Shown piece after piece: positions 7,947-47,961 of a DNA stretch of 47,974 nt. The position numbers and the translations under genes are program-made. The notes under the pieces were generated by a model. It made no database searches, was not told the origin of the DNA, and saw only the letters and a program-made list of their open reading frames with translations. Within the stretch, counting starts at the first letter, position 1; each line of letters starts with the position of its first letter. The stretch spans positions 1 to 47,974 of the IMG/VR virus record IMGVR_UViG_3300047673_000348; one strand, 5' to 3'. The stretch is from a virus.

Positions 7947-8935
7947 TGAGCGCTATGACCCAGTACTACGCCGATGAATCGGTGACGCTACTGCTCGGTG
8001 ATGCCCGCGAAGTCCTCGCGACGCTGCCCGATAGCTCCGTCGACTGCATCGTCACCAGCCCGCCATATCTCGGGCTCCGCGACTACGGGATCCCCGGCCA
8101 GTACGGGCTTGAGGCCACCCCCGCCCAGTACGTCGAGACGATGCGTGCCGTCTTCGCCGAGGCGCGCCGGGTGCTCGCGGACGACGGGACGCTGTGGCTG
8201 AACCTCGGCGACAGCTACGCCAGTACCACCAAGGGCAGTGGCGGCAAGGGCAAGTCATCGCTTGGTGGTACCCAGCATGAAGGCTCGTACTTCGCACTAC
8301 GCAGGCTAGAGCCAGGCCTGCCCGACAAGAACCTGCTCGGCATCCCGTGGCGTACCGCGTTCGGACTTCAAGACGACGGGTGGATCCTCCGTAACGAGAT
8401 CATCTGGTCGAAGCCCAACGCCATGCCCGAGTCGGTGACCGACCGCCTGTCGACCCGGCACGAGCACCTGTTCCTGTTCTCCAAGAGCCAGCGCTACCAC
8501 TTCGACCTCGACGCCATCCGCGAGCCGCTGACCCGCCCGGAAGCCGTCGGCGAGGGCATCGTGTTCGGCGGCTCCAAGGGACCGGGCGGAAAGCTCGGCG
8601 CGTCCAACCGGCGCTCCGGCGGGAACCCGAGCGTCTACGGGGCCACTGGCGAAGCGAAGGGCCGCAACCCGGGCGACGTGTGGTCGATCACCACGAAGCC
8701 CTACCCGCAGGCGCACTTCGCGGTGTTCCCGATCGACCTGCCGATCCGCTGCATCAAGGCCGGATGCAAGCCGGGTGGGACCGTCCTCGACCCGTTCTCG
8801 GGCAGTGGCACGACCGGCGCAGCAGCCCGCCAGCTCGACCGCCGCTACGTCGGCATAGACCTCAACCCGGAGTACCACGACCTGGCCAAGGCCCGGTTCG
8901 CACAGGGTGCGTTCTTCTTCGACGAGACCGCCTGA
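7946..8935 (+). CDS. Beta-class site-specific DNA methyltransferase (329 aa)
   Basis: An amino-group DNA methyltransferase (N4-cytosine or N6-adenine) using S-adenosylmethionine. The catalytic motif TSPPY is at 37-41 and the AdoMet-binding motif DPFSGSGTT at about 282-290; catalytic motif first, binding motif last is the beta-class order. The SPPY form is more usual for N4-cytosine enzymes, so m4C is the better guess. No restriction endonuclease is adjacent, so it is a solitary enzyme, most likely protecting element DNA from host restriction or marking its own DNA. ATG 7946 overlaps the previous stop (TGATG). Confidence 0.9.
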   Translation: MSAMTQYYADESVTLLLGDAREVLATLPDSSVDCIVTSPPYLGLRDYGIPGQYGLEATPAQYVETMRAVFAEARRVLADDGTLWLNLGDSYASTTKGSGGKGKSSLGGTQHEGSYFALRRLEPGLPDKNLLGIPWRTAFGLQDDGWILRNEIIWSKPNAMPESVTDRLSTRHEHLFLFSKSQRYHFDLDAIREPLTRPEAVGEGIVFGGSKGPGGKLGASNRRSGGNPSVYGATGEAKGRNPGDVWSITTKPYPQAHFAVFPIDLPIRCIKAGCKPGGTVLDPFSGSGTTGAAARQLDRRYVGIDLNPEYHDLAKARFAQGAFFFDETA

Positions 8936-13073: not shown

Positions 13074-13282
13074 CCGCCCGCACCCCGGCCGAGGCCATCG
13101 CCGCCGTCCAGCGCCACGGGCCGGCCATCACGGCGGAGCAGCGACAGGCAGCTCTTCGGCTGCTGGAGGACATGCTCGCCGCGGCGGCCCGGCACGGCAT
13201 CACCTACGAGGACTTCGCGTGGGTCACGGGACTCGCTGACGCCTGCGTGGACGTGGTCGTTGCCAAGGCCCGCCGCACCTGA
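13070..13282 (+). CDS. Small helical protein (70 aa)
   Basis: GTG overlaps the previous stop (GTGA). All-helical product with QRQAALRLLEDMLAAAARHG and a second helix pair. Last gene of the coupled run, just before the glycosyltransferase. Family not recognised. Confidence 0.6.
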   Translation: MTARTPAEAIAAVQRHGPAITAEQRQAALRLLEDMLAAAARHGITYEDFAWVTGLADACVDVVVAKARRT

Positions 13283-13319
13283 CCAATCACCACTCGAACC
13301 ACACTCAAGGGGGACCCCT

Positions 13320-14666
13320 GTGCACAATCACCTGGGCTGGTACGGCATAGCCGTCGGCAGCCTGCTCGCCATCAAGCTCCTCGCGTCCATGAAGCGGCGC
13401 CGCAGACCCACCGCGCAGCAGCCGGCAGGGCCGACCGGCCATGTCATCCACAGGGTTGTCACGACTTTCAACGAATCGCCTGCCGCGCTCCGTCGCTGCC
13501 TGGAGTCGATCCTCGACCAGACCCGCCGGCCCGACTCGCTGACGGTCATCGACGACTGCTCGAAGGACCGCTCCGCCGCCGGAGTCATCGACAACCTGCG
13601 CCCAGCGTTCGCCGCCGCGGGGATCCGCCTGGACTTCATCCGCTTCCCCGTCAACAGAGGCAAACGCCACGGCCTCGCGGCAGGGTTCAACGCCCGCCGG
13701 GACGCGGACATCTACCTGTGCATCGACTCCGACACCGTGCTGGACGCGCACGCCGTCGAGGAGGCTGCCCGGCCGTTTGCCCGCCGCCGCGTCCATGCGG
13801 TGACAGGCCTCGTCTTGGCGGCGAATCGGTCGAAGAACCTGCTGACCCGGCTGATCGACATGCGGTATCAGAACGCCTTCCTCGGCGAGCGGGTGGCCTA
13901 CTCCAGGCTGGGCTCGGTCCTGTGTGCCTGCGGTTCCCTCGCCCTCTACCGGGGCGCGACGGTCCGGAAGTACCTCGATGACTTCCTGCAGCAGCGCTTC
14001 CTCGGCAAGGAGTGCACGTTCGGCGACGACCGCAGGCTCACGTACTACTGCCTGCTGGAGGGCCAGTCGCTGATCGTACCCACGGCGGTCGCCTGGACCG
14101 ACGTGCCGGAGAATCTTCGGAAGTATCTCGTTCAACAATGCAGGTGGACGAAGTCGTTCATTCGCGAGGGCGTCCTCCTGGCCTTGAAGGTCAGCTCGAT
14201 GGGCCGCGCCTACTGGTGGCTCAACCTCGTCGAGCTCGCCACGTGGGTCGCGTTCACCTCGGCCCTGCTGGTTGCCCTCGCGGTGTTCGCGTCCAACCCG
14301 CACGCCTGGACGGTGTTCGCCTGGTACGCCGTGTACGTGTCGGCTGCCGCATGGTTCCGGTCACTGCACTACCTCCGCTCGGCCGGCCAGGTGCCGCGCG
14401 CCGACCGGCTGCTCACCTTCGCCGCGGCGCCGCTGTACGCGCTGATGAACCTGACGCTCCTCATCCCGCTGCGGCTGTACGCGCTCGCCACACTGCGGCG
14501 CAACGGGTGGGGCACCCGACAGGCCACGGCCGGGCGCATCCCGCAGCAGGCGCCGACCCGGGCCATCCCGCGCCACGAGGCCGTCACCGTGCCGCTGAAG
14601 CTCCTGGACGTCGACGGCGGCCACACCCTGGAGATGCGCCTCCCCGGCCGCGAGAGTGCCGCGTAG
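13320..14666 (+). CDS. Membrane GT2 glycosyltransferase, hyaluronan/chitin synthase type (448 aa)
   Basis: A processive family-2 glycosyltransferase embedded in the membrane. One N-terminal TM helix (WYGIAVGSLLAIKLLAS) precedes the catalytic domain. Key residues are the nucleotide-sugar motif D136-S-D138, the acceptor-site motif G235-D-D-R238 within CTFGDDRRLT, and Q272-Q-C-R-W276 followed by TKSFIRE. The set GDDR(x)LT plus QQxRWxKSxxRE is characteristic of class I hyaluronan synthase/NodC-like enzymes. About four C-terminal TM helices follow (310-400), then a soluble tail. GTG 13320 is favoured over upstream codons because the TM helix follows at once; the GGGGGA stretch upstream is the likely RBS. 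Substrate cannot be read from sequence; a surface polysaccharide made in the lysogen is the reasonable role. Confidence 0.88.
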   Translation: MHNHLGWYGIAVGSLLAIKLLASMKRRRRPTAQQPAGPTGHVIHRVVTTFNESPAALRRCLESILDQTRRPDSLTVIDDCSKDRSAAGVIDNLRPAFAAAGIRLDFIRFPVNRGKRHGLAAGFNARRDADIYLCIDSDTVLDAHAVEEAARPFARRRVHAVTGLVLAANRSKNLLTRLIDMRYQNAFLGERVAYSRLGSVLCACGSLALYRGATVRKYLDDFLQQRFLGKECTFGDDRRLTYYCLLEGQSLIVPTAVAWTDVPENLRKYLVQQCRWTKSFIREGVLLALKVSSMGRAYWWLNLVELATWVAFTSALLVALAVFASNPHAWTVFAWYAVYVSAAAWFRSLHYLRSAGQVPRADRLLTFAAAPLYALMNLTLLIPLRLYALATLRRNGWGTRQATAGRIPQQAPTRAIPRHEAVTVPLKLLDVDGGHTLEMRLPGRESAA

Positions 14667-23091: not shown

Positions 23092-24495
23092 GTGACCGCC
23101 AGCCCGACCAAGGTGAACGGCACTGCCCGGCCTGCCGTGCCGATCTTCGGCGACTGGCAGAAGATCAGCATCGACGGGCCCGCGACCGTGTGGGAGCGTC
23201 AGCCGGCCCCCGAGGTTCCCGCCGCCTCCGCCGATGTCACCCCCGTGGTGATCGTTGATCCGCGCGCCGAGGCTGAGGCCAAGGCGATCCAGCTCCGTGC
23301 CGAAGCCGAGGCCGAGGCACTGCGGGTCGAGGCCGACAGTAAGGCCGAGGCCGAGCGGATCAAGGCCGAAGAGGAAGCCCGCCGTCAGAAGATCGCCAAC
23401 GACCGCGCGGAGATGAAGCTGGAGCGGGACCAGGCCGACCAGGCCGCCTACCTCGCCAAGAAGGGCGCCGAGGAAGCGGCCTCCAAGGTCGCCAAGGACA
23501 AGGCCGACCAGGCCGCCGCAGACGAGGCCAAGAAGGACGCAGACCGCGAGGCCGAGCAGAAGCGCAGCGAGTCCCTGTGGAAGTGGGGCGCCCGTGGCAT
23601 CTACGCCGTCGGCCTGATCATCGCCGCGCCGGTGCAGTTCCTCGACTTCTGGGACCCCGCCCGCAAGTTCCTCGTCGCCGCCCCGGTCCTGCTGGAAGGT
23701 CTGGCTCTGGTCCTGGCGTGTGGTGCGGCTTGGGCCGTTGCCCACCGGCGCGATGTGCTGCCCTACCGGATCGGCATCATGTTCGGCGCGCTCATCGCGG
23801 CCACGATCAACCTGCGGGGCGGCCTGACCAATCCGACCATCGGCTTCAACGCCGGCCTCATCGGGGCCATCGCCTCCCTCGGCGGCCCGATCGTCCTCAT
23901 GGCCTACGAGCACGGCATCGCACAGAAGGTCGACGGCATCCCATCGTTCCGGGAGCGCCGCGCCGCCACCAAGGAGAAGGAAGCCGAGATCGCCGCGCGA
24001 GACAAGGCGAAGGCCGAGAAGGCCGCGGCGGAGGACAAGGCGAAGGCCGAGAAGACTGCGCAGCAGCTGCACGCCGAGGCTGAGCAGAAGCGCCGGGACG
24101 AGGATCGCCAGAAGCATCACCCGGAGGTGTGGGGGGTCGCCGACGCGCTCCGTTCGGCGCGTGGCTCGGCGACTGTCACGGAGCAGATTTGGAACGAGGC
24201 GTGGCAGCGGGTTACGGGCTCCAGGGTGGTCGGCGTCACGCCCGAGATCGAGGCGTTGAGCCGCGACGCTCAGGCCCGGATGCAGGCCGCCACGGAGATC
24301 ACTCCCGGTGACGCATTGTCACAGGTCGAATCCCAAAAGGTACCCCGCACCAAGAAGGACCCCGACACCCCCGACGGGCGCCGCTTCAACGGCGGCGTTC
24401 CGCCCCTCCGCACGCGCGGCGACGCGCAGCCGAACAGCCCGCTCGCCAAGAAGCAGGCCGCCCTCGAACAGCCCGCCCGAACCACCGCCAACTGA
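23092..24495 (+). CDS. spdB2: SpdB2-like membrane/coiled-coil spread protein (467 aa)
   Basis: Residues 55-155 form a long charged coiled coil (AEAEAKAIQLRAEAEAEALR and repeats). Four hydrophobic helices lie at about 163-285 (IYAVGLIIAAPVQFLDFWDP, VLLEGLALVLACGAAWAVAH, GIMFGALIAATINLRGGLT, LIGAIASLGGPIVLMAYEHG). A second charged coiled coil and a C-terminal region with WNEAWQRVTG follow. Coiled coil plus four-helix core just upstream of traB is the pattern of SpdB2/DUF2637 proteins, which interact with TraB and with DNA during intramycelial plasmid spread. GTG 23092 follows AAGGAGAG. The assignment is by domain order, membrane core and neighbours. Confidence 0.75.
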   Translation: MTASPTKVNGTARPAVPIFGDWQKISIDGPATVWERQPAPEVPAASADVTPVVIVDPRAEAEAKAIQLRAEAEAEALRVEADSKAEAERIKAEEEARRQKIANDRAEMKLERDQADQAAYLAKKGAEEAASKVAKDKADQAAADEAKKDADREAEQKRSESLWKWGARGIYAVGLIIAAPVQFLDFWDPARKFLVAAPVLLEGLALVLACGAAWAVAHRRDVLPYRIGIMFGALIAATINLRGGLTNPTIGFNAGLIGAIASLGGPIVLMAYEHGIAQKVDGIPSFRERRAATKEKEAEIAARDKAKAEKAAAEDKAKAEKTAQQLHAEAEQKRRDEDRQKHHPEVWGVADALRSARGSATVTEQIWNEAWQRVTGSRVVGVTPEIEALSRDAQARMQAATEITPGDALSQVESQKVPRTKKDPDTPDGRRFNGGVPPLRTRGDAQPNSPLAKKQAALEQPARTTAN

Positions 24496-24527: not shown

Positions 24528-25067
24528 ATGTCCCGCCAGTCCATCCGTATCGTCCGCTCCGTGGCCCTGTCGGGTGCTGCTCTGGCGGCGCTCGGGATCG
24601 CCACTCCGGCGGTCGCCGCAGCCACCGAGCAGACCTCCACGGTGCAGTCCGTTCAGGCCGCCACCGACACCACCGTCCGCCTCGCCGACGGCACCCGCAC
24701 CATGACCGTCCGCGGCCTGCCGACCACCCACTACGCGGCCACCGCCGACCACTCCGACGCGGTCATCACCGTGGCTGCCGTCCAGCCGTCCGTGGCCCCC
24801 GTGGTCGACGCGAACGTCACCCCGGCGGTCGACCAGGTCACCCCGGCGAGCGTCAGTGGCGGCACCATCGGCGTTGGCATCGTCGGTCTGATGCTGATCG
24901 GCGTGATCGTGTTCATCGGCATCAAGGGCCGGAAGGTCGCCGCCAGCTGGGCGATCACGCTCGTCGCGCTCGGGGTGCTCCTGGACGGGACGTTCGTCGG
25001 CCCGCTGATCAAGCAGCTCACCAACTCCGCCGTCACCGCTGCCGCCAACACCCTCACCAACTTCTAA
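24528..25067 (+). CDS. Secreted/membrane protein of the transfer operon (179 aa)
   Basis: A clear signal peptide (MSRQSIRIVRSVALSGAALA, hydrophobic core, cleavage near AVAAA at about 30) precedes an extracytoplasmic beta-rich Thr/Val-rich segment. Two C-terminal TM helices follow (IGVGIVGLMLIGVIVFIGI and SWAITLVALGVLLDG). Signal peptide plus two TM helices next to a conjugal translocase is compatible with an Spd cell-wall-crossing component; a pilin-like subunit is a remoter alternative. ATG 24528 follows GAAAGG. Not assigned to a family. Confidence 0.7.
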   Translation: MSRQSIRIVRSVALSGAALAALGIATPAVAAATEQTSTVQSVQAATDTTVRLADGTRTMTVRGLPTTHYAATADHSDAVITVAAVQPSVAPVVDANVTPAVDQVTPASVSGGTIGVGIVGLMLIGVIVFIGIKGRKVAASWAITLVALGVLLDGTFVGPLIKQLTNSAVTAAANTLTNF

Positions 25068-25090: not shown

Positions 25091-27313
25091 ATGACCACGC
25101 ACGCCACCCCGCCCGAGACGGCGGGCCCCCAGATACCGGTCCAGAACCCCATCCCGCCCATGCCCGGCCACGCCCCCTGGTTCAAGTCGCCGGTACCCGC
25201 CGACGCGCCCCCGCCGCAGCCCAAGCTGACGGTGTGGGCGCAGACCAAGCGCGGCTGCCACCTCCTCTACCAGCAGGGCCGCGCCTGGGTGCTCCTTGAA
25301 GGTGTCGACGAGGACGCGCTGACCAAGGACGTTGTCCACAAGCGGGCTGCCGAGAATCGCAAGGCCATCCGCCAGCACCACAGCGAAGTCCGGGACCTGC
25401 AGAAGCAGGCCGCCACCGCCGCCAACCAGGGGCACCCCGGGACGGCAGACCGCTTCAACCAGGCATTCGCAACTCGCGTCACCGTCGGCCCCGTACTCCC
25501 GCACGCGGACGACGACGTCACCGAGAAGGACATCAAACGCCACAAGCTCACCCAGCAGGCCAGCCGGTGCGCCATGGTGGCTGCGGGCGTGGTGGCCGGC
25601 TGGATGATGCTGGGGAAGATGCAGCACCCCATCCTCGGCGTCCTCGCCGCGCTGCTCGGCGGGTTCGGTGCGGCGTGGTGGGCGGGGCGGAACCGCGAGG
25701 CCGACGACAAGGAGTCGTCTCCGGTAACGCTGGCCGCTGAGTCACCCGCCACCATCGCCGCCGCAGCCTCCGCAAGCGCTGCGGGTCCGGTCGCGCTCAC
25801 GAAGTCCGAGGACGTACAGGTGCGGGGCGCGAACGACCTGGTCACCGCGCTCATCAAAGCGAAGATCATCGAAGAGGCCGACCGCGAAGAGACCAGCGTG
25901 CTCGGACTCCGCACCGACGGCCCCGGCTGGACCGCCACCATCGAACTGCCCGGCGGACGCACCGCTGAGCAGGCCATCGCCCGCCTCGTACCGCTCGCCG
26001 GCGCACTGCGCGTCAAGGCGTCGCGCATCGAACTGAAGAAGGACACCAGCGCCGAGGGGCATGAGGGTCGGTTCACCATCTGGGTCGCCGACGCCGACAA
26101 CCCGTTCGGCACCGGCAAGACCACGTCACCCCTGATCAACGCCCCGGAGTGGAACTTCTGGCAGCACGGCGTACCGCTCGGCCAGGACGCCCGGCATGAC
26201 CGGCAGGCACTGCACCTGCTGTGGTCGTCGCTGCTGATCGGTGGTCTGCAGGACTACGGCAAGTCGTACCTGGCACGGCTGATCGCCTCCGCTGGCGCCC
26301 TTGATCCCTACGTGCGGATCATCGTTATCACCGGCAAGTCCGGGCCGGACTGGGCGGCCCTCAAGAAGATCGCCCACGCCTACATTTCCGGCTCCAAGCC
26401 GGACACCCTCGTCGAAGTCCACGAGGTGCTGGACGACCTGATCGGCAGCATGCAGAACCTCGGCGAGCAGTTGGAGAGCCTGTCCGAGACCGACCCCCAG
26501 CAGTGCCCCGAAGGCAAGCTCACCCCGGCGCTCGCCCGGCAGCCGGACAAGAGGCTCACCCTCCTCATCGTCGACGAGCTCCAGGAACTCCTTGACGCCG
26601 CCGCGAACACCCGCGTCAAGGTCGTCGAGGAGGACGAGGACGGCAAGGGTGCGAAGCACCGCAACGGCAAGGACGTGCTGGTCGAGACCCTCGCCCGGTA
26701 CGTGCGCGTGGCCCGGTTCGTCGGCGGCATGGGCGTGTTCATCACCCAGCGCCCCGACTCCGACAGCGTCCCGACCAAGCTGCGCGGGGTGTGCGTGAAG
26801 CGCGCCTGCTTCCGGGTCAAGGGCGACGCCTCCGCGCGGATGGTCCTCGGTGACGATGCGGTGCAGGCCGGCGCGGCGCCGCACAAGCTGCTGGAGCACC
26901 ACAAGGGTGTCGTGGTCCTGGATCAGGGTGCGGAGTCGGGTCACATCACGCAGAAGTCCGATGTGATCGAGCTGCCGGAGTTCCGGGAGATCGTGGAGCG
27001 CGGCTACGACCTGCGGGTGAAGGCCGGGACGCTGACGGGTCAGGCGGCGTCGCGTAGTCGTGTCGATGAGGCGGTGGCGCGTGCGGCGGAGATGCGCCGG
27101 GATGCGGTGGCGGTGTTCGATCGGCTGGGGGTTCCGGAGACGCAGGGGCTGACGGCTGAGTCGCTGGCCGAGGAGGTGGGCGTTGATGTGGATGCTCTGC
27201 GGGAGCGTCTGCGCCGGGATGGGATCACAACAACGAACATCGTGACGTTCGGGGATCGCAAGCGCCTGAAGGGCTTCAAGCGGGACCAGTTCACTGCCCC
27301 GGAGGCGGCCTGA
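25091..27313 (+). CDS. traB: TraB-type FtsK/SpoIIIE DNA translocase (740 aa)
   Basis: This is the septal DNA pump of Streptomyces conjugation, which moves double-stranded plasmid DNA between cells as a hexamer. A proline-rich N-terminus and coiled-coil stretch precede two TM helices at about 160-200 (CAMVAAGVVAGWMMLG; LGVLAALLGGFGAAWWAG). The FtsK-like motor follows, with Walker A G385-L-Q-D-Y-G-K391-S and Walker B LLIVD495-E496-L. A C-terminal winged helix (about 680-735; ESLAEEVGVDVDALRERLRR) would read cis-acting transfer repeats. Presence of spd-like genes upstream and a repeat region directly downstream fits TraB rather than a chromosomal FtsK. The Walker residues are intact, so it should be functional. 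Confidence 0.88.
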   Translation: MTTHATPPETAGPQIPVQNPIPPMPGHAPWFKSPVPADAPPPQPKLTVWAQTKRGCHLLYQQGRAWVLLEGVDEDALTKDVVHKRAAENRKAIRQHHSEVRDLQKQAATAANQGHPGTADRFNQAFATRVTVGPVLPHADDDVTEKDIKRHKLTQQASRCAMVAAGVVAGWMMLGKMQHPILGVLAALLGGFGAAWWAGRNREADDKESSPVTLAAESPATIAAAASASAAGPVALTKSEDVQVRGANDLVTALIKAKIIEEADREETSVLGLRTDGPGWTATIELPGGRTAEQAIARLVPLAGALRVKASRIELKKDTSAEGHEGRFTIWVADADNPFGTGKTTSPLINAPEWNFWQHGVPLGQDARHDRQALHLLWSSLLIGGLQDYGKSYLARLIASAGALDPYVRIIVITGKSGPDWAALKKIAHAYISGSKPDTLVEVHEVLDDLIGSMQNLGEQLESLSETDPQQCPEGKLTPALARQPDKRLTLLIVDELQELLDAAANTRVKVVEEDEDGKGAKHRNGKDVLVETLARYVRVARFVGGMGVFITQRPDSDSVPTKLRGVCVKRACFRVKGDASARMVLGDDAVQAGAAPHKLLEHHKGVVVLDQGAESGHITQKSDVIELPEFREIVERGYDLRVKAGTLTGQAASRSRVDEAVARAAEMRRDAVAVFDRLGVPETQGLTAESLAEEVGVDVDALRERLRRDGITTTNIVTFGDRKRLKGFKRDQFTAPEAA

Positions 27314-27317
27314 TAGG

Positions 27318-27484
27318 CCGTACACCCCCCGCACAGGGCGACTGTTTGCCCAGGTAGATGCTGGTATGTGACCCGTACACCCCCCGCTCACCGGCCTCCT
27401 GGGGCCGTCCACCTGTACGGCTGATGGCCCCGACTGTACGCCCCGCATACCGGCACATAGCGGTCACTGCACGGGGGGTGTACG
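27318..27484. repeat. CGTACACCCCCCG repeat array downstream of traB (candidate clt/operator)
   Basis: CCGTACACCCCCCGC occurs exactly twice (27318-27332 and 27373-27387) and its 13-bp core once inverted (27472-27484). Shortened versions lie at 27414 (CTGTACGG) and 27434-27446 (CTGTACGCCCCGC). The shared core CGTACA/TGTACG thus appears five times, at 27319, 27374, 27414, 27435 and 27479. The array fills the non-coding gap right after the translocase gene, where TraB recognition repeats (clt) or a Kor-type operator would be expected. No open frame crosses this 268-bp gap convincingly. Confidence 0.65.
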
Positions 27485-27508
27485 CCCCACAAATCAACAC
27501 AAACCACC

Positions 27509-27523
27509 GCCCCCGACGGGGGC
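27509..27523 (+). terminator. Small hairpin after the traB repeat region
   Basis: GCCCCC, loop GAC, GGGGGC followed by TTCCCTC; a weak candidate terminator between traB and the next gene. Confidence 0.4.
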
Positions 27524-27581
27524 TTCCCTCAGCACACCCAAAAACCGGGACCACCCCGGACCAACCCGAAAGGAGCCCGTC

Positions 27582-27980
27582 ATGGGCACTTGGTACCGCG
27601 CCACCGACTGGATCGACGGAAAGCTCACCGACGCCATCCACAAGACCGGCGCCAGCAACGAAGCCAAGCGCTTCGCCAAGAAGGTCGTGATCGGCAAGAC
27701 CTACTACACGATCAAGACGGACAACGGACCGGGCGCCCGGCAGTACCTCGACGAGCACGTCTTCATGAAGATCTCGACCTTCACCGGCCTGCCCGAAGGC
27801 GCCCCCGACGTGTGGGCGTGCGCCGGCCCCGTCTACGACAACCGCAACGCCCCCGGCTGCAAGGGCCTCATGACCCTGCGCGAGTACCGCGAGTGGCTCA
27901 ACGAAGACGACGGACCGGACATCAGCCGCAACCTCAACGACTACGCCGACAAGCCCAAGCGCGGACGCCGCGCCGCCTGA
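27582..27980 (+). CDS. Hypothetical protein (132 aa)
   Basis: ATG 27582 follows GAAAGGAG at 27569-27576. Product has a helical start (MGTWYRATDWIDGKLTDAIH), a beta-rich centre and a basic C-terminus (DKPKRGRRAA). No metal or membrane motif. First gene after the transfer module; family not recognised. Confidence 0.7.
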   Translation: MGTWYRATDWIDGKLTDAIHKTGASNEAKRFAKKVVIGKTYYTIKTDNGPGARQYLDEHVFMKISTFTGLPEGAPDVWACAGPVYDNRNAPGCKGLMTLREYREWLNEDDGPDISRNLNDYADKPKRGRRAA

Positions 27981-44554: not shown

Positions 44555-45982
44555 GTGGAGCGCTCCGAGCTGCAGTGGTTGACTCATCTGATCTCCTGCC
44601 ACGACAAGGAGCTGAACGAGCTCAAGCGCCTGAACTCGTACTACGAGGGCTCTCAGCCGCTGTCGTACATGGCGCCCGAGCTTCAGGTCGAGTTGCAGGA
44701 GACGGTGCGGCAGGTGGTCATCAACTGGCCGCGCCTGATCGTCGACAGCATCGAGGAGCGCCTTGACGTCGAGGGCTTCCGTTTCCCCGGCGTGGCGGAT
44801 GCGGATGACGAGCTGTGGCGGATCTGGCAGGCCAATGACATGGACGAGCAGTCGCAGATGGGGCATCTGGATGCCCTGGCGATGCGGCGCTCGTACATCG
44901 TGGTGGGCGCGAACGAGGATGACGACTCGACTCCTCTGATCACCGTCGAGAGCGCCCTGGACATGTTCGCGGAGTTCGATCCTCGGACGCGTCGGGTGGC
45001 TGCGGCGGTGAAGCGCTGGCAGGAGGACGGTGAGGGTGACCGGAAGGTCGATCACGCGACGCTGTATCTGCCGGATGTCACGGTGTGGTGGGTGAAGGAG
45101 TCCGGCCATTGGGTCGAGGACCCGGAGTATCCGCGGGATGAGCACGAGACGGGGGAGGTTCTCGTCGAGGTGCTGCCGAACCGCCCGCGCCTGAAGTGCC
45201 CGGGCGGCGTGTCGGAGTTGCAGGACGTGATCCCGCTGTCCGACGCGGCCTGCAAGATCGCCACGGACATGATGGTGTCCGCCGAGTATCACGCGACACC
45301 GCGGCGTGTGGCGTTCGGGTTCGGCGAGGAGGACTTCGTCGACGAGTCCGGGCGGCGGGTGTCGGCGTTCAGTCGGATCATCGGCCGGATGTGGGCGACG
45401 GAGCGCTCCAAGCAGGATGGCGCGGATGTCGTCCAGTTCCCGGAGGCGTCGCTCAGCAACTTCCACAACACGCTGAATCAGCTCGCCCAGCTCGTCAGTT
45501 CCCTGTCCGGCCTCCCGCCGCAGTTCCTCGGCTACTCGACCCAGAACCCGGCATCGGCCGACGCTATCCGTTCCAGCGAGACGCGGCTGGTGAAGCGCGC
45601 GGAGCGCAAGCAGCGGGCATGGGGCGGCTCGTGGGAGCGCGTCATGCGGCTGGTCCTGCGCGTCAAGGACGGCGAGTGGGATCCGGCGGCCCGGTCGCTG
45701 GAGACGATCTGGCGGGACGCTTCGACCCCGACCGTGGCGCAGGTCGCGGACGCTTCGGTGAAGAAGTTCCAGGCGAAGATCGTGCCTCTCCGGCAGACGC
45801 GCGAGGACCTGCGGTACACGCAGGCGCAGATCGAGCGCATGGAGGAAGAGGACGAGGCCGCAGCCCAGGACGCCATGCAGCGCATCATGGCCGGCGACCT
45901 GTCCGCACTAGAGGCCGGCCCGAAGCCTCCGCCCGATCCCGTCATGCCTGAGGCTGACCCCGAACCCGCGGAGGTGGCCTGA
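44555..45982 (+). CDS. Phage portal protein, SPP1 gp6-like (475 aa)
   Basis: The dodecameric vertex ring through which DNA enters. Typical segments are LKRLNSYYEGSQPLSYMAPE at the start, RLIVDSIEERLDVEGFRF, LSGLPPQFLGYSTQNPASAD and AIRSSETRLVKRAERKQ in the C-terminal half, then an acidic tail. Order terS-terL-portal-MuF is the standard head module. GTG 44555 is preferred because AGGGGG lies 5 nt before it; GTG 44549 is possible. The last codon overlaps the MuF start (TGATGG). Confidence 0.9.
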   Translation: MERSELQWLTHLISCHDKELNELKRLNSYYEGSQPLSYMAPELQVELQETVRQVVINWPRLIVDSIEERLDVEGFRFPGVADADDELWRIWQANDMDEQSQMGHLDALAMRRSYIVVGANEDDDSTPLITVESALDMFAEFDPRTRRVAAAVKRWQEDGEGDRKVDHATLYLPDVTVWWVKESGHWVEDPEYPRDEHETGEVLVEVLPNRPRLKCPGGVSELQDVIPLSDAACKIATDMMVSAEYHATPRRVAFGFGEEDFVDESGRRVSAFSRIIGRMWATERSKQDGADVVQFPEASLSNFHNTLNQLAQLVSSLSGLPPQFLGYSTQNPASADAIRSSETRLVKRAERKQRAWGGSWERVMRLVLRVKDGEWDPAARSLETIWRDASTPTVAQVADASVKKFQAKIVPLRQTREDLRYTQAQIERMEEEDEAAAQDAMQRIMAGDLSALEAGPKPPPDPVMPEADPEPAEVA

Positions 45983-47961
45983 TGGCCACGGGGTCGGTGC
46001 GGGATCTGTCGGCCGAGGAGCTCGCGAATGCCTTCTATGTGGCTCAGCAGTCGCATGCCCGCCGGGTGACGGACCGGGTTCAGCAGTTGTGGCGGGAGAT
46101 CGACCGTCGCGATCTGAGCCGGTCGTGGGCCATCTACATCGGCCCGGAGGTGGTCCGGACCGTAACCGCTGGCCAGTTGGCTACGGCGGCAGCGGCGGAC
46201 GCCTACGTCGAGTCCATCATCGCGGCACGGGGCCTGAGTTCAGATCCCGCGGGCCGTGTCCGTCCAGAGGCTTTCGCTGGGCTTGCCGCTGATGGTCGGT
46301 CGCTGGACACGCTGCTGGATCTGCCGCTCATCACCTCGAAGACGGCCATCGCGGCAGGCGTCGATGAGGTCGAGGCGATGATGACGGGCCTGCAGCAGTT
46401 GCTGCGCATGGCGGCGTCGGAGGTCACGGATGCCGGGAGGGCGGCCACTGGGGTGTCGATCGCGGGGAACCGCACGATCAACGGCTACATCCGGGTGGTC
46501 AATCCGCCCGCGTGCAGTCGGTGCATCATCCTCGCCGGGCGGGAGTACGGCTGGAATACAGGATTTCAACGGCATCCGCGCTGCTTCCCGGCCGGAGTGG
46601 TGGTGTCGGGGCCTAGGTCACAGGCGGCCACGCGGCGGTGGTTCCAAGGGGAACTCATTGTCCTCTCTACCGCGAGCGGCCAGAACCTCGCCCTGACCGG
46701 AAATCACCCGGTACTGACAAGTCGCGGGTGGGTTCCGGCGAACCTCATCCAGGAAGGCGACGAGGTAGTCCGCAGCACCCGCCCCGAGGGCGCTACGCCC
46801 CTCGTAGTCCCAGATCATTACGAGATGCCATCCCTCATCGAGGACGTATGGGGTGCGCTCAGCGTGCACGGTCTTGACCGCATGCCAACCGCCACCGAGG
46901 ACTTCCACGGCGACGGGCAGCAAGGCGAGGTCGACGTTGTATACGCCGATCGCGCGCTGGCGAGTGGCAATCTGGCCACGGTCGGCAAGAAGTTGGTGCA
47001 ACTCGGCCTCGCCGGAGGACTGGGCTTGACCGGCCAGTTCGATGCCGAGCGCGCGTCGATGCTTTTGAATCTGTGGGACGCGACGCAATCGGGCGGCCCG
47101 GTTGGCGGCGGCGGCCTGGGTCTTGCGCTCGCCAGCGCTCAACTTGGCCGCCCTGACAACGCCAGCTTCACTGGCGTCACGCCGCTGTACTCCGGCTTCC
47201 GCGAGGCGGCGCGCGATGACATTTCGGGACACCCCGTACTGCTTGCCGAGCGCGAACTCGCTGGCTCCATTGAGGTAGGCGGACGCGATTTCACTGATGG
47301 GGAGATCGCGGGTCTTCCGCGATGGGATGCCCCGGGAGACTCGTTCTCGGTGGAAACGCGTGACGGATATGCCCGCCAAGGTCGCGATCTCCTGGATCGG
47401 CTTTCCGGACAGGTAGAGCTCGATCGCGTAGTCGAGCTTCGCCGGGGCGAGTGGAGAGGGCACGTTTACAGCCTCACTTCGGTCGAGGGGTGGCACGTTG
47501 CGAACAGTCTCATTGTATCAAACTGTGACTGCACGCATATGCCCGCAAAGCTGATCGCCCGCGACCGTCACATCCCCGGCGCGTTCGATCCGCAGGCCTA
47601 CTTCAAGGGCCTGTCCCGCGCCGAGCAGGACCGCATCTTCACCCAGGCCGGCGCGAACGCGATCCGGGATGGCGCGGACATGAACTCTGTCGTCAACGCC
47701 CGGCGCGGCATGTACACCGCGGCCGACGGCTACGGCGGTCGACTGCGCGCCACCTACGAGGGCACCACCCGCCGCGGCCTGTACTTCCAGATGGAGCGGT
47801 CTCGCGCCTATCGGGCGGGCACGGCTTCGCCCCGGTACCCCAGGCGTTTCCAACTCTCCTCGCCGCGCCTTCTGCCCGAGCAGATTTACCGGCTCGCCGG
47901 TAGCCGTGACGAGGCCATCAGTTTGCTTCGCCAGTACGGCTATCTGGGCTGGAGCGTCTGA
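45982..47961 (+). CDS. MuF-type minor head protein interrupted by an intein (659 aa precursor)
   Basis: Exteins: residues 1-200 are the helical N-terminal head-morphogenesis part, ending INGYIRVVNPPACSRCIILA and FQRHPR, and 515-659 continue CDCTHMPAKLIARDRHIPG and so on. Together they rebuild the MuF metal motif CxxC ... HPxCDC, with 345 aa, normal for the family. Residues 201-514 are an intein inserted exactly before the CDC Cys. It begins at Cys201 (CFPAGVVVSG), has the TxxH block TGNHPVLTSRGWVPA, and ends HVYSLTSVEGWHVANSLIVS-N514 followed by Cys515. The precursor must splice to give a working head protein. Confidence 0.88.
   Translation: MATGSVRDLSAEELANAFYVAQQSHARRVTDRVQQLWREIDRRDLSRSWAIYIGPEVVRTVTAGQLATAAAADAYVESIIAARGLSSDPAGRVRPEAFAGLAADGRSLDTLLDLPLITSKTAIAAGVDEVEAMMTGLQQLLRMAASEVTDAGRAATGVSIAGNRTINGYIRVVNPPACSRCIILAGREYGWNTGFQRHPRCFPAGVVVSGPRSQAATRRWFQGELIVLSTASGQNLALTGNHPVLTSRGWVPANLIQEGDEVVRSTRPEGATPLVVPDHYEMPSLIEDVWGALSVHGLDRMPTATEDFHGDGQQGEVDVVYADRALASGNLATVGKKLVQLGLAGGLGLTGQFDAERASMLLNLWDATQSGGPVGGGGLGLALASAQLGRPDNASFTGVTPLYSGFREAARDDISGHPVLLAERELAGSIEVGGRDFTDGEIAGLPRWDAPGDSFSVETRDGYARQGRDLLDRLSGQVELDRVVELRRGEWRGHVYSLTSVEGWHVANSLIVSNCDCTHMPAKLIARDRHIPGAFDPQAYFKGLSRAEQDRIFTQAGANAIRDGADMNSVVNARRGMYTAADGYGGRLRATYEGTTRRGLYFQMERSRAYRAGTASPRYPRRFQLSSPRLLPEQIYRLAGSRDEAISLLRQYGYLGWSV
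46618..47463 (-). CDS. Antisense homing endonuclease candidate inside the intein, Vsr/EDxHD-like (281 aa)
   Basis: Encoded opposite the intein in exact codon register (each codon is the reverse complement of a sense codon). Two helix-turn-helix units lie at about 10-45 (IELYLSGKPIQEIATLAGIS) and 55-92 (EIASAYLNGASEFALGKQYG). They are followed by a Vsr/DUF559-like nuclease core: E154 in SSGEAELHQLLADRG, D178 in VYNVDLAL, E187 in VAVEVLGGG, W193-H194, and DEGWHLVMIWDYEG (about 209-222). GTG 47463 is favoured because GTGAGG lies 8 nt upstream; GTG 47496 would extend it by 11 residues. The TGA (46618-46620) falls inside the intein N-domain. Length alone means little in GC-rich DNA; the ordered HTH-HTH-nuclease pattern is the evidence. 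Confidence 0.72.
   Translation of the reverse strand: MPSPLAPAKLDYAIELYLSGKPIQEIATLAGISVTRFHRERVSRGIPSRKTRDLPISEIASAYLNGASEFALGKQYGVSRNVIARRLAEAGVQRRDASEAGVVRAAKLSAGERKTQAAAANRAARLRRVPQIQKHRRALGIELAGQAQSSGEAELHQLLADRGQIATRQRAIGVYNVDLALLPVAVEVLGGGWHAVKTVHAERTPYVLDEGWHLVMIWDYEGRSALGAGAADYLVAFLDEVRRNPPATCQYRVISGQGEVLAARGREDNEFPLEPPPRGRL
47512..47517 (-). promoter_or_regulatory. Candidate -10 (TACAAT) for the antisense endonuclease
   Basis: On the minus strand TGATACAAT gives a consensus-like -10, formed by the rare A/T-ending sense codons ATT-GTA-TCA (Ile-Val-Ser) of the intein C-terminal splice block. Transcription would begin near 47505, about 42 nt ahead of the GTG at 47463. The -35 side is weak. 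Confidence 0.5.

Follow-up and report, generated by a model that had tools for sequence, protein, structure and literature searches.

The closest described counterparts of the locus analyzed here are the cis-acting transfer loci (clt) of conjugative plasmids. In pWTY27, the clt comprises 159 bp next to traA and another 16 bp within this gene, is needed for transfer and contains TGACACC and CCCGCCC repeats that are footprinted by TraA (PMC3583192). A clt with 8-bp TRS has been described for pSVH1 (Vogelmann 2011, as cited in PMC3583192 and PMC4170104), and TraB is summarized as reading 8-bp repeats via helix alpha-3 of its winged helix (PMC3583192).

Here, we analyzed a viral DNA stretch of 47,974 bp (the window), in which a repeat array occupies the gap behind a TraB-type translocase gene. 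Similar to the pWTY27 clt, the array resides in a non-coding stretch by a tra gene and combines short direct with inverted repeats. It differs from the plasmid locus, which is experimentally proven, in its repeat core, in that 16 bp of the plasmid locus lie inside traA and in its replicon, as pWTY27 is a 14-kb theta plasmid and not a phage. A preliminary description of this DNA had offered two roles for the array, either as clt repeats recognized by TraB through its C-terminal winged helix or as Kor-type operators. Sequence comparison across the TraB family indicates that the array is very probably the clt of the phage TraB, made of TraB-recognition repeats.

A TraB-type translocase in a tailed phage

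The translocase gene encodes a motor of the FtsK/SpoIIIE type (Table 1). Its product matched phrog_1358 (FtsK/SpoIIIE-like) with an E value of 1.5e-24, shared 28% identity with pSVH1 TraB over the motor (E 1e-24) and contained readable Walker A and B motifs (GGLQDYGKS and LLIVDE); Pfam returned no match for the protein. AlphaFold2 modeled the last 101 residues as a helix-helix-helix-strand-strand fold, and for most of it the mean pLDDT was about 84-90. A structure search with this model revealed Rex-family winged helices as the nearest solved folds (Z up to 7.9), and the FtsK gamma domain was not among the matches listed. Neither TraB nor its C-terminus retrieved a meaningful match among the sequences of solved structures. 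On the basis of the model, TraB is predicted to end in a winged helix.

The window is an IMG/VR virus record with a terminase (phrog_9), an SPP1-type portal, a MuF-like protein and a DnaB helicase. The replicon belongs to a tailed phage with a high-G+C actinobacterium as host, an aspect absent from the preliminary description; this host is probably Streptomyces, as the closest TraB relatives in named genomes belong to this genus. Among the viral contigs of the window's TraB clade, 9 out of 12 carry a terminase and 8 out of 12 a portal. On the strand that carries traB, the terminase follows downstream at a distance of about 4 to 19 kb, in one contig (L271) only if that contig is circular. This contig (70,334 bp) has traB near one end and the terminase near the other, on the same strand, and the usual order is restored if it represents a circular or circularly permuted genome. 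A tyrosine integrase was found in seven out of ten relatives (six above the cut-off) and a ParA partition ATPase in none of the ten, so several relatives probably represent temperate phages that integrate; the window itself yielded no integrase. Two further window genes deserve mention. The MuF-like head protein (45982-47961) appears, from its sequence only, to contain a HINT/intein-like insert of about 290 residues, and a glycosyltransferase family 2 membrane protein is encoded at 13260-14666, in the early region of the phage.

Searching annotated phages with the window TraB gave no match. The Streptomyces plasmid-phage ZL12 (NC_013420), as is probably true of the window, is a Streptomyces phage genome; it also lives as a plasmid, but neither an FtsK/SpoIIIE-like (phrog_1358) protein nor a match to the window TraB was found in it. 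Mycobacteriophages such as Baka, Wanda and Courthouse resemble the window in being tailed actinobacterial phages with a TraB/FtsK-type motor. Their FtsK-like proteins share about 27% identity with pSVH1 TraB along part of the motor, but did not match the window TraB at 1e-5, and Baka has neither gap nor array behind its FtsK-like gene.

Table 1. Features of the traB region, in window coordinates
Feature	Position	Strand	Remark
Membrane protein, weak similarity to SpdB2 (spread protein) of pSVH1	23092..24495	+	
Small protein, signal-like and membrane segments	24528..25067	+	Upstream of traB, same operon-like run
TraB-like FtsK/SpoIIIE DNA translocase, 740 aa	25091..27313	+	
TraB C-terminal domain, predicted winged helix	27008..27310	+	Recognition helix about 27188-27217
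Non-coding gap, proposed clt	27314..27581	.	268 bp
Direct repeat copy 1, exact CCGTACACCCCCCGC	27318..27332	+	Relatives extend it ...CCCGTAC
Direct repeat copy 2, exact CCGTACACCCCCCGC	27373..27387	+	55 bp (5 x 11) past copy 1
Short core CTGTACG	27413..27419	+	
Shortened copy CTGTACGCCCC	27434..27444	+	Contains TGTACGCCCC from 27435
Exact inverted copy ACGGGGGGTGTACG	27471..27484	-	
Shortened copy TGTACGCCCC	27479..27488	+	Overlaps inverted copy
GC hairpin GCCCCCGACGGGGGC	27509..27523	.	Separates array from next gene; terminator-like on - strand
Next gene	27582..27980	+	

The array is a local, conserved cluster

Every repeat named in the preliminary description, that is, two exact 15-mers, an exact inverted copy and shortened copies within a 268-bp gap after the translocase gene, was found in its place, with the first repeat only 4 bp past the traB stop. 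That description had not mentioned the spacing, which follows multiples of 11 bp both between the direct copies (Table 1) and in the right-hand GTAC pair (44 bp, 4 x 11). An Rfam search gave no match. Two independent metagenome contigs encode TraB proteins 97% and 95% identical to that of the window and conserve almost every letter of the gap. At the positions where the window reads GCAC next to a full copy, GTAC is present at both places in one of these contigs, L005, and at one place in the other, L004; the restored repeat of the relatives reads GTACACCCCCCGTAC, with GTAC exactly 11 bp apart. The L005 gap differs by single-base indels, which speaks against a coding function.

All three instances of the exact 12-mer GTACACCCCCCG in the 47,974-bp contig lie inside the gap, and the reversed pattern, used as a control, does not occur at all. 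Any 12-mer reached three copies per gap in just 3 out of 2,000 dinucleotide shuffles; elsewhere in the contig, a 12-mer at three copies is confined to a single place, at about 1676-1900. GTAC itself appears five times in the gap versus 0.78 times expected, representing an about six-fold enrichment (P about 0.001). When two mismatches were allowed, the motif was not enriched across the contig (5 found versus 7.6 expected), indicating that the signal is a local cluster. Random scatter of the motif through the genome, which the preliminary description had named as speaking against its proposal, is thus not what the exact 12-mer displays. Among the relatives, core repeats were likewise concentrated next to traB, the exceptions being two non-clt matches in one contig. 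Searching viral contigs with the paired motifs GTACACCCC and GGGGTGTACGCCCC (58 and 119 stretches) revealed TraB in the retrieved DNA of only two already known contigs, and a search with ATGTGACCCGTACACC and CGTACACCCCCCGTAC returned four more contigs with a G+C content of 44-60%, none of which had TraB in the retrieved DNA.

This confinement bears on the second role proposed earlier, in which a phage or Kor-type repressor would sit on the repeats and control traB or the downstream gene. Such an operator array would be in keeping with short repeats, direct and inverted, close to a gene start, and both pSVH1 and related phages indeed carry a divergent GntR gene in their tra operons. However, the array lies behind traB instead of at the tra promoter, and its motif is found at no other promoter and nowhere else in the contig; in L005, the motif recurs outside the array once only, with one mismatch. 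Moreover, the array is intact even though a GntR-type gene could not be detected in the window, a search for sigma-70 promoters gave no match (weak evidence in Streptomyces), and the core tracks the TraB winged helix, as described below. An operator array is, accordingly, quite improbable.

Pooled TraB loci show phasing at about 11 bp

For a family-wide comparison, 102 loci were collected from one scan each of genomes and viral contigs, and six plasmid loci were added. A repeat-bearing gap directly follows traB in phage relatives, Streptomyces plasmids, AICEs and pSVH1. The repeat core varies by lineage, with GTAC(ACC) in the window, CCGGTCG in sister phages and GCTC, GTGTC/GACAC, GGTAG or GGTTC in plasmids and integrative elements. 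We then computed 4-mer self-identity in the first 110 bp after traB for 64 non-redundant TraB loci, alongside shuffle and coding controls. The pooled profile peaked at lags of 11-12, 21-22, 31-34, 43-44 and 54-55. Self-identity amounted to 0.038 at lag 11 (0.012 in shuffles, 0.004 in coding DNA) and 0.043 at lag 22 (0.011 and 0.003, respectively), and the coding DNA of the same traB genes was devoid of peaks at both lags. Tested singly, the window and all nine sister phages reached the shuffle floor (p = 0.003). At the level of individual loci, 36 out of 64 were phased at p<0.05, but so were 15 out of 64 coding controls, in part because several of the lags are multiples of 3; the per-locus test is therefore loose, and the pooled profile represents the better evidence. 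Among the AICEs, the large group that has GGTAG as its core was weakly phased.

The plasmid pSVH1 (NC_007431) provided a positive control. Sites of the type GACCCGGA, which we take to be the letters of its 8-bp TRS, are located directly after the traB stop. They start at 8147, 8158, 8169 (a variant) and 8180, that is 11 bp apart, followed by sites at 8212 and 8233 and an inverted one at 8249. The window shares with pSVH1 the run of sites from the traB stop onward, the partial 11-bp spacing and the single inverted copy, but differs in its core (GTACACC versus GACCCGGA) and in the sequence of its TraB motor, for which the low identity is given above.

Phased direct repeats are also typical of iterons, and the array might in principle belong to a replication origin or, alternatively, act as a phage partition site. 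We consider either assignment highly improbable. A second array in the window, iteron-like and accompanied by a putative initiator gene of its own, occupies 1717-1894, just before dnaB and 24 kb away from the gap, the position after traB is constant across very different kinds of elements, and the lack of ParA in the ten relatives speaks against a partition site. In this second array, a 34-nt repeat (core GCTAGTGGTTCGAATTTCAAACC) is present five times within a reading frame that directly precedes dnaB. These repeats resemble iterons within a lambda-O-like initiator gene and likely mark the phage origin.

The collection of gaps also revealed features outside the phage clade. A second motif, about CTGACCTGCRAAG, is common to clt gaps with quite different repeat cores, including those of AICEs, plasmids and pSVH1 (for example, L289 at about 8288-8300, L192 and L245), and none of this type was seen in the phage clade. 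At least eight out of nine letters of CTGACCTGC were present on the + strand in 35 out of 64 loci and on the - strand in 8. In the AICE group (L182, L190-L260), traB is followed by GGTAG/CTACC arrays, which represent clt candidates in actinobacterial integrative elements; according to a 2022 study, no clt has been described in pSAM2. In AICE-type TraB winged helices (motif QVKI.G.N..AGY), Asn at one wing position goes along with a GTAG core and Ala or Ser with a GTCA core, a pattern seen in L207, L208, L237 and L282. This wing position is a possible specificity residue, but given the exceptions L211, L227, L232 and L240, we do not claim a wing-residue code for this group.

Winged helix and repeat core change together

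We next compared the window with the sister phages (L186-L188, L266-L275). Their loci have the same position before the structural genes as that of the window, an alignable gap and a TraB motor that is 59-62% identical, while the winged helix is only 20-29% identical (0.25), the core is CCGGTCG and the k-mer similarity between window and sister gaps is 0.03. In contrast, 316 other pairs at 54-66% motor identity had winged-helix identities of 0.36-0.69, never falling below 36%, and a mean gap similarity of 0.25 or 0.45. The window and sister gaps can be aligned over their length and have the spacer GGTATGT.ACCCG in common, while their cores are different, which indicates that this is the same locus with its cores replaced. 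The change in winged helix and core is what an exchange of a recognition domain together with its site would leave, and we read it as a natural exchange that, between the window clade and its sisters, counts as one evolutionary event. In a partial Mantel analysis across loci, gap similarity was associated with the winged helix given the motor (0.27, p 0.001; coding control 0.10), but its association with the motor given the winged helix was about as large (0.31), so general relatedness accounts for part of the fit.

Discussion

The comparison favors the first of the two roles offered in the preliminary description. Support for a clt comes from the array and its conservation, from a position behind traB that is the same in plasmids, AICEs and phages, from the common 11-bp phasing together with the pSVH1 control and from the joint change of the predicted winged helix and the repeat core. 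The GTAC(ACC) cores, phased at about 11 bp so as to lie on the same face of the DNA helix and arranged with the direct copies on the left and the inverted copy on the right, would, by analogy to pSVH1 and pWTY27, be contacted by TraB subunits through their C-terminal winged helices. Binding would load the hexameric, membrane-anchored TraB motor onto its own genome beside traB, and only clt-bearing DNA would then be pumped, in double-stranded form, into a neighboring hyphal compartment or recipient.

Alternatively, TraB could be loaded at this site for an intracellular job, carrying the phage genome through septa or into spores, without any cell-to-cell transfer. FtsK-type motors do so for chromosomes, and a phage has its own exit from the cell; the layout of TraB, clt and Spd-like genes, in turn, matches that of conjugative plasmids, and we regard a purely intracellular role as unlikely. 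As it invokes the same site and motor, it is partly contained in the explanation by a clt, and the array would still be a TraB loading site.

Taken further, the clt assignment suggests that a temperate Streptomyces phage lineage carries a full TraB-clt module upstream of its head genes. It would hence have two routes of spread, traveling between colonies in virions and, between hyphae or cells, as a double-stranded genome moved by TraB, and would switch recognition specificity by swapping winged helix and core together. We put this forward tentatively, as a serious possibility that falls somewhat short of an even chance. If true, specificity switching would stop co-resident elements from moving one another. 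The surprise lies in finding a conjugation-type DNA pump and, very probably, its own site together in a tailed Streptomyces phage family instead of a plasmid.

From a practical viewpoint, an array phased at about 11 bp directly after traB provides a sequence rule for clt discovery, which recovers the pSVH1 sites and yields candidate sites for integrative elements. The natural exchange of domain and site, in turn, makes the protein-DNA code of the TraB winged helix testable. Finally, a module generally attributed to conjugation turns out to be a stable part of a tailed-phage lineage, blurring the border between phages and conjugative elements in Streptomyces.
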